Assembly (NCBI GenBank): GCA_947490615.1
Contig: CANLHK010000013.1
Location: 1 to 60,070, forward strand
Reading direction: 5' to 3'
Length of the DNA: 60,070 nt
From: Planctomycetaceae bacterium
Lineage (GTDB): Bacteria > Planctomycetota > Phycisphaerae > Phycisphaerales > SM1A02
The position numbers were made by a program, and so were the translations under genes. Under the pieces are notes generated by a model. That model saw nothing but the letters and a program-made list of their open reading frames with translations. It ran no database searches and was not told the DNA's origin. Positions within the stretch are counted from its first letter, which is position 1. The number at the start of each line of letters is the position of its first letter. Positions 29,185 through 37,976 of this stretch are shown here, one piece after another.

Positions 29185-29637
29185 ATGACCGAAGAGACCA
29201 CGACTCCCACCGCCTCGACCACGACGCGCATCCTCCGCGGCCCCGATCAGAAGGGCTGGTACTGGGGAACGGGCCGTCGCAAGACCGCCGTCGCGCGCGT
29301 CCGCATCAAGAGCGGCACGGGTGCGATCGAGGTGAACGACAAGGAGTTCGCCGAGTTCTTCGTCGAAGAGCGTGACCGCGGAGCGATCCTTGCGGTGCTC
29401 GAGAAGACGGGCCTCAAGGGCAAGGTCGATGTGAAGGTCAATGCACACGGCGGTGGAACGACCGGCCAGTGCGGCGCCACCCTGCTCGGCATCGGCCGCG
29501 CGATCATGAGCTTTGACGCGACGCTCGAACCCATTCTGCGCGAGAACGACTTCCTCACCCGCGACGCGCGTAAGGTCGAGCGCAAGAAGTACGGCCAGTC
29601 CGGCGCCCGCCGCCGCTACCAGTTCAGCAAGCGCTGA
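29185..29637 (+). CDS. rpsI: 30S ribosomal protein S9
   Basis: A 150-residue S9. After about 25 extra N-terminal residues rich in Thr the standard sequence begins, WYWGTGRRKTAVARVRIKSG, followed by VNAHGGGTTGQCGATLLGIG, LRENDFLTRDARKVERKKYG and the terminal RRRYQFSKR, whose final Lys-Arg reaches the P-site tRNA. Second gene of the rplM operon, with a strong terminator beyond it. Confidence 0.97.
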   Translation: MTEETTTPTASTTTRILRGPDQKGWYWGTGRRKTAVARVRIKSGTGAIEVNDKEFAEFFVEERDRGAILAVLEKTGLKGKVDVKVNAHGGGTTGQCGATLLGIGRAIMSFDATLEPILRENDFLTRDARKVERKKYGQSGARRRYQFSKR

Positions 29638-29740: not shown

Positions 29741-31387
29741 TCACACGCCGCGAATCTGGTTTTCGGCGGCCCGCATGCGCCGCGTCATCAACGCGACGGT
29801 GGTGCGATCTTCGCCGGCGAGCGTTTCCATGGTTCGCGGCGGAAGGCCGCAGAAGCCGTGGCGGCGCGCGACAAGGCGCGCTGCGTCACGAAGTTTCGGC
29901 TCGGACATCGCCGCCGCGACACGCGCAGCATGATGTCCCATCGGATCGACGATCGCCTGCCATTGCGCGACTTCCTTGAGCGCGTGCATGGCAACACCCG
30001 CCGCGTGCCGCGCGGAAGCTCGAGGCGTCCGTCGTGCGGGGATGAGCTTGGCAATGGCGTAATCGGCTGCGAGCGAGGCCGCGCGGTCAAAGCGCTGACG
30101 CGACGGATCAAATCCCGCGACGACGCCCTGCGCGGTCCACGAGAGTTCGCGCACGAGCGTGCGCAACTCATCGGCAGGCAAGCGCTCGGTCCCTGTGTCA
30201 ATCGCCTGATCCGCGCGGCCAAGTGCGATCACCATGGCGCGTTCAATCAACAGCGCACGAAGGCGCAACGCGGTGCGGAGGTCGGTCTCGATCTGGTCGA
30301 GCGCCGTGCGATCGGGCCAACGCGGCAAGGCATCGATCGCGCGTGAGGCGCGACGAAGCAAGTAGTGCATCGCTGCGCCGCGGGTTTCATCGCGCTCGTT
30401 GGCCGCGCGCGCATCCGTGGAGTACAGCCTTCGGATCGCCCGCGCCGACTCCACCATCGCCAGGAGTTCGCCGTCGACGAGGCCAAGCGGATGCAACTTG
30501 CGCACCGAGGGCGCAGAGGGAATCGTTTCTGCTGCGCCCGGAAGATCAAAGGTCGGAAGATCGACCCACGACGGTTGCACGCCGCGCAGCAATTCTCCGC
30601 GCCGACGATCCACGAGTGCGCGCAACAGTGGTTCGGTGCGGCCAACACGGGCTGCGATCTTGGCGGGATCCACGCCAAGCCTCCACGCGCGCTCCGCCAA
30701 ACGGCCCGAGTGCTCAATGACGCCTCGACCCGTCGACGCGCGCACGCCAAACTCGCGCAGCAGCAGCAGTCGGACGCCTTCGTGGGAGCGATGGAAGCGC
30801 GCCGAGAGTTCTTTCGCGGCGAGATTGAGCGAGCTGCCGCTCTCCAGAAGTCTGCGCGCCTCATCCAAGATGCCGCAGCGCTCACTGGCATCGATGCGGC
30901 GGAAGTTCCGCGCGCGGGCGACTTCCGCTGGATGTTGCTCCGCGAAACGCTCGAGACTGGCGCGATAGATCTCGACGCGCTGCCGACCACCGTCCAACAC
31001 CCAGTGCGCGCAGAGTCCCGCGCGACGCCAGCGTTGCAAGGTCTTGGAGGCGATCCCTAGTTCACGCGCGAGATTCTCAGGAGTGGACGCGCCGCCAGCA
31101 CGCTCCTCTGGACTCATGGCGATTCGCGCGGAAAGGTCGAGGACCAGCGTCGAGAGATCCGCGCGCAACGCGCGGCCAGTGACGACTTCGCCTCGCGCCG
31201 CCGCCACCTCAGCACCAAAGATGCGCTGCAGCGTTTCCTCCAACGCATACTGCGTCGACGCGTCGGTCGCGGCGATGATCGCCTCGGCTGCGTCGATCTG
31301 TCGGCGCGTCGCGGCTTCCGACGCGTAGGCCGTCTGCGCTGGAAGCGCTTGGATCGTCTTGAGGCTGTAGCTGGCTCGTCGAGGCAT
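29741..31387 (-). CDS. Sigma-70-like regulatory protein with N-terminal helix-turn-helix, degenerate
   Basis: A 548-residue soluble protein. Residues about 102-150 (STPENLARELGIASKTLQRW, then RAGLCAHWVLDGGRQRVEIY) form a MerR/excisionase-like winged helix-turn-helix. A second helix-turn-helix may lie at 186-212 (NLAAKELSARFHRSHEGVRL). Residues 368-450 run parallel to sigma-70 region 2, with GVVAGFDPSRQRFDRAASLA standing where sigma factors have KFDPxRGxxFSTYA. Residues 486-545 resemble region 4 (RRHGFCGLPPRTMETLAGED). The usual NLRLV, DLIQEG and WWIRQAI core motifs are degraded, so promoter melting or core binding may be lost. Comparable HTH-sigma proteins are, as far as I recall, found in Phycisphaerae. 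It is monocistronic and convergent with rpsI. Confidence 0.65.
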   Translation of the reverse strand: MPRRASYSLKTIQALPAQTAYASEAATRRQIDAAEAIIAATDASTQYALEETLQRIFGAEVAAARGEVVTGRALRADLSTLVLDLSARIAMSPEERAGGASTPENLARELGIASKTLQRWRRAGLCAHWVLDGGRQRVEIYRASLERFAEQHPAEVARARNFRRIDASERCGILDEARRLLESGSSLNLAAKELSARFHRSHEGVRLLLLREFGVRASTGRGVIEHSGRLAERAWRLGVDPAKIAARVGRTEPLLRALVDRRRGELLRGVQPSWVDLPTFDLPGAAETIPSAPSVRKLHPLGLVDGELLAMVESARAIRRLYSTDARAANERDETRGAAMHYLLRRASRAIDALPRWPDRTALDQIETDLRTALRLRALLIERAMVIALGRADQAIDTGTERLPADELRTLVRELSWTAQGVVAGFDPSRQRFDRAASLAADYAIAKLIPARRTPRASARHAAGVAMHALKEVAQWQAIVDPMGHHAARVAAAMSEPKLRDAARLVARRHGFCGLPPRTMETLAGEDRTTVALMTRRMRAAENQIRGV

Positions 31388-31575: not shown

Positions 31576-32847
31576 TCAGCCCGCGGCGGAATTCACCCGC
31601 GAGGCCGCCGTTGGCGCAGCGTTTCCAAGCGCTTGAGCGGCCTCAGGCGTGAGAACATTGGCCGAGATCGAGGTGGTGCGCGCGATCCGCGGATTGAGGC
31701 GGGTGAGCAACTCGTGCGGGATCAGTCCCGCTTCGGCGGCAAGCCGTGGGAGATGCGTCGGCGCGTGAATGTCGCGGGAAATGAGCTCGACCGAGCAGCC
31801 GATCCAGTCGTGGATGTCGCCCGTGTGGAGTCCGGTGACATCGACCGTGAGTTGATCCATATTCACGACACCAACCACGGGTGCATGCACCATGCGGCCA
31901 TCGGGCGTGAACAAGCGCACGCAGGCGCGGCCCGAAGCGTCAGGCGTGCGCGGCAGCGGGTAGCCGTCGGAGTAGCCAACAGGAATCAGCGCGATCGTCG
32001 ACGGACGCTGCGCGATCCATCGACCGCCGTAGCCAACGGCAGTCCCCGCAGGAATCGCCTTCGCTTGCACCACGGCCGTCGACCAACGCACCACAGGTCG
32101 GAGCTCTTCGCGCGCGATGACCGCATCGGGCGCCTCGAGTTCATCGAGTCCATAGCCGAGCCACGCCACACCAAAGCGCACCATGGTGCGGTGGTAACGC
32201 GCGTCGCGAGCCAACGCATAGGTACTTGCGACATGCTCAAGCACATCGCTGGGCATGTCGGCGCGACTGGCCGCGATCACATACTCGTAACACTCCATCT
32301 GCCGCGCCGTCAGCGCAGCATCGGTGCGCGCATGAGAGAAGTGCGCAAACACGCCGCGTAAGGTGAGGCGCGAGGAGTGGGCAATGCGCGCAATGATGCG
32401 CACCGCTTCATCAGGCAGCGCGCCACCGCGGCTCATTCCCACATCGACTTCAACATGGACAGGAAGTTCGATTCCCAGCGACGCAGCGCAGGCTTCAAGC
32501 GCCGCGAGATTCTCTTCATCGTGCACGACAAGATGCAGTTGCCCCGCGAGCATGAGTCGGACGAGTTCGTCCTCACGAGCGATCGAGGTGACGGGCATCA
32601 GCACGAGAATCGGCACGGCACCGTTGACGGCGGCGGCGGTTTCGATGGCTTGCCGAAGGGAATACACCGCAAGCATCTGTGCGCCCGCGCCGACCAAGCG
32701 ACGCGCCACGCGCGTGACACCAAGACCGTACGCGTCGGCTTTCACGATGGGACAGAGTGCGCACCCGTCGCCGACAACCCGCCGAATACACAGCATGTTG
32801 TGATCAATGGCCGAGAGGTCGATGTCGATGGTGCTGGTGTCTTGCAT
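31576..32847 (-). CDS. alr: Alanine racemase
   Basis: A 423-residue PLP enzyme supplying D-alanine for peptidoglycan. The PLP-binding lysine lies in IVKADAYGLG near residue 38; the VFAHFSHA segment, the catalytic Tyr in VGYGGRWIA, LIPVGYSDGYPLP and VGVVNMDQLTVDVT are all typical of Alr/DadX. A C-terminal tail of about 30 residues extends past the usual end. The ATG at 32847 is preferred to an upstream GTG at 32865. It is divergent from the RNA helicase. Together with murA, murG and ftsW it shows that a peptidoglycan pathway is present. Confidence 0.94.
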   Translation of the reverse strand: MQDTSTIDIDLSAIDHNMLCIRRVVGDGCALCPIVKADAYGLGVTRVARRLVGAGAQMLAVYSLRQAIETAAAVNGAVPILVLMPVTSIAREDELVRLMLAGQLHLVVHDEENLAALEACAASLGIELPVHVEVDVGMSRGGALPDEAVRIIARIAHSSRLTLRGVFAHFSHARTDAALTARQMECYEYVIAASRADMPSDVLEHVASTYALARDARYHRTMVRFGVAWLGYGLDELEAPDAVIAREELRPVVRWSTAVVQAKAIPAGTAVGYGGRWIAQRPSTIALIPVGYSDGYPLPRTPDASGRACVRLFTPDGRMVHAPVVGVVNMDQLTVDVTGLHTGDIHDWIGCSVELISRDIHAPTHLPRLAAEAGLIPHELLTRLNPRIARTTSISANVLTPEAAQALGNAAPTAASRVNSAAG

Positions 32848-32981
32848 GGCGTCTTGCCTGCGCACTCAACTCAATTGCACCTTCCCGCACTCTGGCGCGA
32901 GCAGCCCAAAGGCATGCTCCTGTCCGCGCGTCATGCGTCGAAGGCTGGCCATCCTGACCGGACACCTTCTGGAGGCTGCAT

Positions 32982-35479: not shown

Positions 35480-35780
35480 GTGATCGCTGACCGAAGACTG
35501 ACCGAGCGCTGACTTGACACCTCCGCGCCACTCTGTTTGACTATCGGTGTCGCGGGCCTTCGCCCCGACGCCGATGCCCACGCCGTAGAGATGCCGCGAC
35601 GCCGAGGGAAGCCGCCCATGCGCACCCATGCCATGGTGGCCCCTGCCGACGCAGTTCTTTCCCGTTGGGGAATCCGCGCTCAAGCCCTGCAAATCCTCGA
35701 CTGCATCCCGTGTCGCCCTGCGCGTGCGGACACTCATTGGCCTCCACGCCCACGAGCGGAGTCGAATCTTGGTTCCCACG
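35480..35780 (+). other. Non-coding leader region of rho
   Basis: A 301-base gap between psuG and rho. It contains short CTGACCGA/CTGACTTGAC repeats near 35487-35519 and a TTGACA at 35514-35519, but the nearest -10-like sequence (GACTAT, 35539-35544) is 19 bases away and weak. The frame of rho is open through the second half but shows no protein-like sequence. rho is known to be autoregulated by termination within its leader in several bacteria, and a leader of this length would allow that; this is inference. Confidence 0.4.
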
Positions 35781-37976
35781 ATGGCCGCAAAGAAGACTGC
35801 ATCGAAGAAGCCCTCGACCGACAAGGCCGAGGTGAAGAAGCCCGCGGCAGTCAAGAAGAAGCCGACGCCAACCAAGAAGGCTGAGCTTCCCAAGGCCGCG
35901 CCCGTGAAGGCCGCGGTCAAGAAGCCCGCTGCCACAACGAAGAAGGTGACCAAGGCCGCTGAGCCGAAGCCTTCTGCGAAGATTGCGGCGACCGCCGCGC
36001 CGAAGCCCGAAACGAAGCCTGCGCCGAAGTCGGCGCTGAAGCCTGAAACGAAGACCGAAACGAAGACCACCGCCAAGCGCGCACCGAAAGCGAGCGCTTC
36101 CGCGGCGCCGAAGGCTCCGCGCGTTGAGGCTGCTCCCGCTCCAACTTCCGTCGCCGCGCCAGCTCCCTCGCGCCCGATTGTGGTGGAAGTGAAGCCTGCC
36201 TCGGCATCGCACGGGCACGCGCAGCCGCCGCAGCAGCAACAACATCATCAGCAAAACCGTCCACACCATCACGGTCACGCTCCTCAGCAGGGTGATGCGG
36301 GCGCGAACGGTGAGGGCGGCACAGGCGCGCCCTCGACCGACGGCGCGCCAGGCGACGGTGAAGGCGGAGGCAAGCGCCGCCGACGCAGGCGTCGGAGGAG
36401 GCGCGGCGGTGGCGGCGGCGACCCCAACAATCCCAACGCGCCGCAACAGCAGGGACAACAGCAACAACAGCAAGGTCAGCAGCAGCGACAGAACCAAGGA
36501 CAACAGCAAGGCCAGAACCAAGGACAACACCAAGGCCAGCGTCAAGGCCAAGGTCAAGGTCAAGGACAAGGTCAAGGACAAGGTCAAGGCCAAGGTCAAG
36601 GCCAAGGACAAGGACAAGGTCAGAAGCAAGGACACCACAAAGGTCAGCATCCGCATCAGCAGCAGCGTCAGAATCAACAACAGCAACAACAGCAGCGCCA
36701 GCACCAACAGCAGCGTCAGCAGCAGCATCGTGGTCCAGCACCCGAGTTGAATGCCGATGAGGGCGACGACTTCGACGGTCCAGACGATGGACTCGACGAC
36801 GGCGACACGACGCTCGACCAGAACGGCGTCCCGCAACCGCTGCCCACCTTCGAGTGCGAGGGCTATCTCGAATGGTCGGGCAACGGCGATGGCCGCATCC
36901 GCCAACTTGGTGACGGCTTCATCGAGTCGAGCGAAGATCTCTTTGTTCCTGCATCACTGCAGAACGAATATCCGCTGCGCCATGCGCAACGCGTCGTCGT
37001 GGAAGGCGTCGTCAAGCGCACCAAACGCAAGCGTCGCGGGCCGCGCAATGCGCGTCCAACCGTGACGCGCGTCCTCTCGATTGAGGGCATTCCTCCTGAG
37101 GAGTACGCGCGCCGCAAGGTCTTCGCCGAGTGCACGGCGCTCGATCCGCAGCCGCGCATTTCGCTTGAATACAAGGGCTGCCCGCCAGCCTGTCGCCTGA
37201 TCGATCTGTTCTGCCCGATTGGTTTCGGCACCCGCGGGCTCATTGTTGCTCCGCCGAAAGCGGGCAAGACGATCCTGCTGCAGAACATCGCCTACGGCAT
37301 CAAGCGCAACCATCCGCACATTGAGCTTGTCGCGCTTCTCATCGACGAGCGCCCCGAAGAAGTCACCGACTTCAAGCGCAATGTTCCTGCGCATGTGTTG
37401 GCGAGTTCCAACGATCAGGATCTTGATCGTCACCTCTCACTGGGCATCCTCGCCATCGAACGCGCCAAGCGCATGGTCGAAGCTGGCCGCGATGTCGTGG
37501 TGTTGCTCGACTCGCTCACGCGTCTCGGTCGTGCTTTCAACAACAGCCGCAAGTACGGTTCGTCGGGACGCACCATGTCGGGCGGCTTGGATTCACGCGC
37601 CCTCGAAGTGCCCAAGCAACTCTTCGGCGCTGCCCGCAAGTGTGAAGAAGGTGGCTCGCTCACCATCATCGCCACCTGCCTCGTGGACACTGGTTCGCGC
37701 GCGGACCAGATGATCTTTGAGGAGTTCAAGGGCACGGGCAACATGGAGCTGATCCTCGATCGGTCCATCTCCGAGAAGCGAATCTTCCCCGCGATCAACC
37801 TCGCGGCCAGTGGAACGCGCAAGGAGCAGTTGCTCATTCCTGAGCGCGAGCTCAAGACCGTGACGGCGTTGCGTCGGCGATTGCTTTCCGTTCCGCCGCA
37901 CGCGCAGATCGAGCAGTTGCTCGCGGCCTGCCAGCGCTTTGAGAACAATGAGCTCATGGTTGGCGGCGCGAGCTAG
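35781..37976 (+). CDS. rho: Transcription termination factor Rho with long disordered N-terminal extension
   Basis: A 731-residue Rho. The catalytic part is standard: Walker A APPKAGKT (488-495), LLIDERPEEVTDF, Walker B VVVLLDSLTRLGRAFN, SGGLDSRALEVPKQLFGAAR, EEGGSLTIIATCLVDTGSRADQ and FKGTGNMELILDR. The primary RNA-binding fold (about 355-455) is divergent: GDGFIESSEDLFVPASL replaces the usual GFGFLR-type motif. Before it lies about 350 residues of low complexity: Lys/Ala/Pro-rich 1-135, His/Gln-rich 145-170, a run of ten Arg (199-208) with five Gly, and a Gln/Gly tract 221-315. Ordinary Rho is about 420 residues. The ATG at 35781 begins the Lys/Ala stretch and was chosen over an in-frame 35628 start that has no protein-like sequence. 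Confidence 0.95.
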   Translation: MAAKKTASKKPSTDKAEVKKPAAVKKKPTPTKKAELPKAAPVKAAVKKPAATTKKVTKAAEPKPSAKIAATAAPKPETKPAPKSALKPETKTETKTTAKRAPKASASAAPKAPRVEAAPAPTSVAAPAPSRPIVVEVKPASASHGHAQPPQQQQHHQQNRPHHHGHAPQQGDAGANGEGGTGAPSTDGAPGDGEGGGKRRRRRRRRRRGGGGGDPNNPNAPQQQGQQQQQQGQQQRQNQGQQQGQNQGQHQGQRQGQGQGQGQGQGQGQGQGQGQGQGQGQKQGHHKGQHPHQQQRQNQQQQQQQRQHQQQRQQQHRGPAPELNADEGDDFDGPDDGLDDGDTTLDQNGVPQPLPTFECEGYLEWSGNGDGRIRQLGDGFIESSEDLFVPASLQNEYPLRHAQRVVVEGVVKRTKRKRRGPRNARPTVTRVLSIEGIPPEEYARRKVFAECTALDPQPRISLEYKGCPPACRLIDLFCPIGFGTRGLIVAPPKAGKTILLQNIAYGIKRNHPHIELVALLIDERPEEVTDFKRNVPAHVLASSNDQDLDRHLSLGILAIERAKRMVEAGRDVVVLLDSLTRLGRAFNNSRKYGSSGRTMSGGLDSRALEVPKQLFGAARKCEEGGSLTIIATCLVDTGSRADQMIFEEFKGTGNMELILDRSISEKRIFPAINLAASGTRKEQLLIPERELKTVTALRRRLLSVPPHAQIEQLLAACQRFENNELMVGGAS
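36543..36620 (+). repeat. CAAGGN hexanucleotide tandem repeat within rho
   Basis: Thirteen consecutive copies of CAAGGN (N = C, T or A) encode thirteen Gln-Gly pairs starting at Rho residue 255. The third codon position of Gly varies, so the array has diverged and is held at protein level. Shorter CAAGG units flank it. Such arrays can change copy number by slippage. Confidence 0.9.

Follow-up and report, generated by a model that had tools for sequence, protein, structure and literature searches.

A sigma-70-derived protein of the Phycisphaerales with eroded signature residues and a predicted N-terminal array of helix-turn-helix units

Two kinds of departure from the classical sigma factor are already known: sigma-like proteins that have left sigma work, and working sigma factors that have diverged very far. 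In the alphaproteobacterial PhyR a sigma-2/sigma-4 domain has ceased to work as a sigma factor (PMC4598750), and in T4 gp55 a very diverged sigma-2 binds the clamp helices and opens promoters (PMC7892883). The gene described here lies in a 60,070-nucleotide stretch of DNA from a planctomycete of the order Phycisphaerales (the window, by which the whole stretch is meant), and its protein invites comparison with both. PhyR is the nearest precedent, the likeness being a sigma domain out of sigma work; it differs in joining a receiver to an ECF-type sigma domain and in binding the anti-sigma factor NepR, whereas the window protein has helix-turn-helix (HTH) units and gives no receiver match, and region 1.2, present in the intact relatives of the window protein, further sets the family apart. 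With gp55 the likeness is an extremely diverged sigma-2, but gp55 retains clamp contact and promoter opening, and an N-terminal HTH array is not described for it in the available part of the source (PMC7892883).

With the sigma-70 factors of groups 1 and 2 the likeness is one of common descent: intact members of the family match sigma-70 models, and the predicted fold of the window protein resembles sigma-70 over residues 306-454 and, more weakly, on to residue 548. The window protein differs in having no Pfam or NCBIfam sigma match, in the disappearance of the signature residues of regions 2.2, 2.3-2.4 and 4.2, and in its three N-terminal HTH-like units. Residues 99-154 match BldC, phage Xis and the DNA-binding domains of small terminases along almost the full length of each solved chain (Z 5.4-7.0), but none of these small proteins or domains has a sigma half. 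The best NCBIfam model for one intact relative (L054) was MzaA, the sigma-70 protein of the MZA anti-phage system (E 3e-50), at 172 bits against a cut-off of 800 and over the sigma part only; PADLOC also reported MzaA for L054 (E 3.1e-36), plus mad1 at the HTH, and gave no match for the window protein. No published description of this family was noticed in the literature searched, which misses most subscription papers, and a sigma architecture with an N-terminal HTH array, kept after motif loss and with its stages of decay visible, looks new. One gene can be traced across lineages, as a sigma factor with intact motifs in some, half-decayed in another, and in others as a conserved protein without a sigma signature that retains the predicted DNA-binding half, and the conversion of an initiation factor into something else becomes directly testable.

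The gene and its single-sequence matches

The preliminary description had read the gene (Table 1), by eye, as a degenerate sigma factor fused to a MerR/excisionase-like HTH. Its open reading frame is real (minus strand, ATG start and 548 codons in the ORF list of the window), and both sigma-like motifs that had been quoted from it are present, FDPSRQRFDRAASLA beginning at residue 426 and RHGFCGLPPRTMETL at residue 509. Single-sequence searches of the window protein returned the HTH at residues 102-152 as their only match, with E 2.6e-5 for HTH_17 (24.8 bits, below the curated cut-off of 27) and E 5.2e-6 for PHROG 66, "excisionase and transcriptional regulator". At E <= 10 there was no sigma match in Pfam, in NCBIfam or, by phmmer, among PDB sequences. 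Against a profile of intact sigma-2 the protein scored about -0.6 to -0.9 bits and against that of intact sigma-4 it gave no match, and 4700 shuffled C-termini reached maxima of 7.6 (sigma-2) and 8.0 (sigma-4) bits. Since the single-sequence searches gave only the HTH, and shuffles score as high, the eye-made motif reading was insufficient by itself: on the window sequence alone the sigma outline was no better than chance, and it was through the family that it became convincing.

Table 1. Coordinates of the gene, its parts and its neighbours in the window
Feature	Coordinates	Strand	Description or basis
Whole gene	29741..31387	-	Three HTH-like units N-terminal, eroded sigma-70 C-terminal; 548 aa
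Helical N-terminal domain, no known name (residues 1-93)	31109..31387	-	High-pLDDT prediction
HTH1, MerR/Xis/BldC-like winged helix, predicted (residues 99-154)	30926..31093	-	HTH_17, PHROG 66, VIA
HTH2, homeodomain-like, three helices, predicted (residues 163-219)	30731..30901	-	VIA
HTH3, terminase/DeoR/sigma-4-like HTH, predicted (residues 220-275)	30563..30730	-	VIA
Eroded sigma regions 1.2 to 2.4 (residues 306-454)	30026..30472	-	VIA, intact orthologues, replaced signature residues
FDPSRQRF, region 2.3 remnant (residues 426-433)	30089..30112	-	Aligns to FDYARGFKF of intact relatives
Eroded sigma region 4 (residues about 484-547)	29747..29938	-	Family profile against RpoS/RpoD region 4
alr (alanine racemase), upstream neighbour	31576..32865	-	Ala_racemase_N E 7.8e-46; 188 bp gap
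Convergent neighbour, reads as rpsI (ribosomal protein S9)	29185..29637	+	Read from translation

Intact and eroded members of one family

Matches to the gene were found in 59 of 61 relatives, with no internal stop among the matches listed and with some ending at contig ends. A copy 78% identical (L121, CAMBUI010000028.1) and a relative 63% identical (L122) also turned up. A profile made from 26 near-relative rows found a match in 191 of the 198 genomes of the class, four of these matches being weak (E 4e-6 to 3e-4) and perhaps not this gene. There is one copy per genome, in nearly all relatives sampled, and the gene is not indispensable everywhere, since a good genome of the window organism's own family (G020) is without it. 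Full-length copies also occur outside the class (families f49, f90, f99, f70, f35, f96, f56 and f63), and most other matches of that search, which cover the sigma part only, were taken as other sigma factors. One out-of-class member (G275:C281:4485-6113) has one TAG within its matched stretch. L059, the 3' part of which has unknown residues and then runs out of frame, was excluded from some counts, and L024, which is cut by a contig end, from the alignments.

Among the 26 near relatives, HTH_17 matched at E <= 1 in 24 and Sigma70_r4 at E <= 1 in 15; Sigma70_r2 was absent among the 25 Pfam families listed, and RpoS region 4 was reached by the 26-row profile with E 7.6e-6. Beyond the order of the window, this gene exists with the same N-terminal half and with its sigma-70 regions intact, and Sigma70_r2 (best E 4.9e-14), Sigma70_r4 (best 1.2e-22) and TIGR02937 (best 5.3e-31) each match 10 of 10 such orthologues. 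The protein shares common descent with sigma factors, as is established by the full-length intact orthologues and by the trees of the N-terminal half, and the fusion of a degenerate sigma factor to a MerR/excisionase-like HTH is upheld by orthology and phylogeny, and less firmly by the predicted fold. That the window copy matches no sigma model, whereas its orthologues match sigma-70 models clearly, is a warning for annotation.

Profiles of sigma regions 1.2, 2 and 4 were built from 21 intact rows, with family f5 and the later-fetched genes held out. All 20 held-out genes from outside the order, which were picked by the author, non-randomly, from match lists and five of which lie outside the class, scored 74-139 bits for sigma-2 and 30-87 bits for sigma-4; RpoD of the window genome scored 71.6 and 57.8 bits, and L081, a standalone sigma paralogue in the same genome, 76.1 and 45.3 bits. 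Within the order, sigma-2 has been lost (at most 32 bits, or no score) in 58 of 64 genes, which belong to families f1 (37), f2 (9), f3 (1), f4 (6) and f6 (5), and three of the 58 give no sigma-2 score at all (L060 and L140 of f1, and one gene of the window organism's genus). Sigma-4 is better preserved than sigma-2, with maxima of 27.3 bits in f2, 25.9 in f1 and 32.9 in f3. In f5 all six genes keep sigma-2 (58-102 bits), and five of the six have sigma-4 at 55 bits or above. The f5 gene L126 (genome G052) is half-decayed, at 57.8 bits for sigma-2 and 9.2 for sigma-4; FSAYANW is retained in it, and EGN and the reading helix of region 4 are gone. All five f6 genes (L089, L093, L094, L095 and L096) stop before region 4 and retain the N-terminal half, and no sigma-4-like stretch was found in the other frames of the f6 DNA fetched. 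In the f1-f4 genes extracted whole, the reading frame continues through the region 4 remnant. As a separate observation, L081 (G000:C3:178376-179293, minus strand) and 14 similar loci, from 12 genomes in all, are standalone sigma paralogues in which FSTYxCR replaces the usual region 2.4 FSTYATWW, so that the double tryptophan is missing.

When a tree was built from the N-terminal half alone, a single branch (94/89) set the eroded genes of f1, f2 and f4 apart from the rest; f6 made up a separate clade (100/97), and the f5 genes there are intact. A further tree, made by a quicker method from 90 rows and with f3 included, joins f3 to the eroded f1, f2 and f4 (94 SH-aLRT) and places L126 within the f5 clade (100 SH-aLRT); this tree carries no bootstrap, holds four of the 15 genus rows, leaves out five other rows and came with a warning that the long branches L159 and L160 meet. 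One and two losses of sigma for f1-f4 and f6 were inseparable (AU p 0.439). Because the half-decayed L126 sits inside the f5 clade, it suggests a separate decay, and sigma decay has probably occurred at least twice.

The sigma-70 residue numbers used below (Y430, W433 and so on) are those that we take to be the equivalents, placed by motif. None of the 24 intact rows departs from Y430, R588 or Q589 at the equivalent positions, and all are acidic at that of E407. The aromatics of -10 melting, Y430 and W433, correspond to A436 and L439 in the window protein, and throughout the 15 rows of its genus Y430 has become A, W433 L, T429 R and Q406 R, and G408 is L or I; the N409 equivalent is never N, E407 remains E in three rows, R588 is replaced by T (nine rows) or S (six) and Q589 by K (11) or R (four). 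Elsewhere in f1, W433 survives in one of 15 rows and Q589 in two of 15, and the five f6 rows have Y430 in one, W433 in one and G408 in three. The erosion first noted by eye in the -10-reading and core-binding motifs is borne out residue by residue, for the residues that read -10 and -35 and for those of region 2.2.

Within the genus, dN/dS over regions 1.2-2.4 was 0.03-0.30 in eight of 10 pairs (the other two were not computable), and over the less constrained remnant of regions 3-4 it was 0.055-0.50, figures that are rough because dS was often near 1. With these low ratios and with several new residues shared by all 15 genus rows, the sigma remnant is altered yet constrained.

The N-terminal half and the predicted fold

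The N-terminal half was modelled with a mean pLDDT of 91.3 as a helical domain followed by a winged HTH and two further HTH-like units; where one MerR/excisionase-like domain had been described, three HTH-like units are predicted. In the model HTH1 has two helices followed by a two-stranded hairpin; VIA matched it to a domain of a phage DNA-packaging protein (7lwr, Z 7.0, 53 of 54 residues covered), to Xis (4j2n, Z 6.0) and to BldC (6amk, Z 5.6), and a winged-helix fold is predicted for it; the Z values stay below 8, but the match takes in the complete small domain. The VIA matches of HTH2 were 2rn7 (Z 6.3) and a POU domain entry (Z 6.1), and HTH3 matched 6ejq (Z 6.6, rmsd 1.0 over 48 residues).

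This half, too, is constrained. Across 58 intact and eroded rows Y47, R119, G124 and L125 are invariant and 12 further positions nearly so, and 10 of these 16 positions fall within the HTH units. R119, G124 and L125 belong to HTH1, and R200, E203 and R206 of HTH2 and R263 of HTH3 are nearly invariant; in residues 1-93, which hold Y47, the same is true of A34, E35, G71 and L78. The net positive charge of HTH1 is lower in f1 (about +3) than in intact forms (about +6), and this tells against DNA binding having stayed the same, while that of HTH3 is not lowered, its mean net charge being +1.0 to +10.2 across every family group.

The full AlphaFold model (pLDDT 89.5, pTM 0.60) places residues 306-454 on E. 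coli sigma-70 with a VIA Z of 8.4, a value that the tool treats as ambiguous where proteins are helical, and an rmsd of 3.6 over 132 residues, and the 50 matches that VIA listed all carry RNA polymerase or sigma titles. Foldseek gave E values of at least 0.2 with the full model and nothing at E <= 0.001 with either the full or the N-terminal-half model, a result that excludes no family. With Z in the ambiguous range and Foldseek weak, the predicted fold supports a sigma identity but falls short of proving it.

Possible roles and genomic context

It is probable, in our view, that a sigma factor has here been turned into a DNA-binding regulator, with its sigma part a re-purposed scaffold. The preliminary description had put forward a repressor, an anti-sigma decoy or an unconventional initiation factor as candidate roles. 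The ancestor was a sigma-70 factor that already bore an N-terminal array of putative DNA-binding modules, and in the window's lineage the residues for -10 melting and reading, for -35 reading and for clamp contact in region 2.2 have disappeared, the sigma half having probably ceased sigma work. The HTH array has stayed and would now bind specific chromosome sites at which the protein might act as a regulator or as a chromosome-binding protein, and the sigma-derived helices may serve as a folded scaffold or as a protein-protein surface. A DNA-binding regulator is favoured by the retention of the HTH units, and a normal initiation factor is unlikely given the lost signature residues and the loss of the whole of region 4 in the five f6 genes. 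We infer that the eroded protein would bind DNA, would have lost its binding to RNA polymerase and would have a regulatory role. Against this regulator reading stand T4 gp55, as a very diverged sigma-2 that works (PMC7892883), the modest charge shift of the 2.2 helix and its undiminished acidic residues in the genus, the lower charge of HTH1 in f1, the single signature residues that survive in a few eroded rows and the failure to see a conserved operator; the rough dN/dS figures, the weaker constraint on regions 3-4 and the ambiguous structural scores count on the same side.

Less likely is a mimic or decoy in the manner of PhyR, in which the eroded domain would bind an anti-sigma factor or another partner of a paralogous sigma, and so release or sequester that sigma. 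As in the sigma-like domain of PhyR (PMC4598750), the fold has seemingly been kept though signature residues were lost; an intact standalone sigma paralogue (L081) is at hand in the same genome, and the remnant is under purifying selection. No receiver domain, however, was found among the Pfam matches at E <= 10, half of such a mimic (region 4) is gone in the five f6 genes, and the conservation of the HTH units would be left unexplained.

Still more doubtful is an unconventional initiation factor, in which the HTH array would replace the reading of -10 and -35, the eroded sigma core would still tether RNA polymerase, and promoters would be recognised by a new code; were this true, such a factor would have arisen stepwise and repeatedly within extant lineages. 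T4 gp55, with its working and diverged sigma-2, is a precedent (PMC7892883). All 15 genus members preserve F and R in the FDPxR remnant, and the 2.2 helix shows no depletion of acidic residues in the genus (3.0, with 2.4 in intact forms). Its mean net charge is -1.4 in intact forms (-2.6 in f5), -0.5 to +0.4 in f1-f4 and -1.2 in f6, and these charge data are weak evidence either way. Against an initiation factor stand the replacement of the Y430, W433, G408 and N409 equivalents in every genus row and the missing region 4 of f6, and, since different eroded families have different residues at the signature positions, no shared new promoter-reading surface is visible across them.

That the sigma half simply drifts, with only the N-terminal half of importance, is quite improbable: it would fit the lower likeness of the sigma regions (22-34%) than of HTH1 (41%) in the other f1 genera, the loss of region 4 in f6 and the absence of the gene from at least one good genome of the same family (G020), but it is opposed by the low dN/dS of regions 1.2-2.4, by the new residues fixed in the genus and by the frame left open through the region 4 remnant in f1-f4.

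Turning from the preferred regulator reading to possible targets, no conserved operator could be made out by eye upstream of the gene in 14 genus members, the fifteenth having too little upstream DNA. Directly upstream of the gene, on the same strand, a gene of one BLAST cluster occurs in nine of 13 order regions, and one member of that cluster is PF02621 (MqnA-like) by Pfam. Among the f1 genomes searched, six carry one or two PF02621 genes each, and in five of these a copy lies just upstream of the sigma-derived gene. In none of eight further genomes, seven of the window organism's genus (g1) and its sister G031, was a PF02621 gene found, and all eight keep the sigma-derived gene. As this genus and its sister do without PF02621 and retain the gene, a dedicated regulator of menaquinone synthesis is unlikely, and that candidate was rejected. 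Genus g1 and G031 have apparently lost the futalosine route to menaquinone (MqnA/MqnD).

Elsewhere in the window, an ORF of 782 aa at 35628-37976 on the plus strand has a C-terminal half that reads, from its translation, as the transcription terminator Rho, preceded by a long low-complexity stretch rich in Q, G and H.
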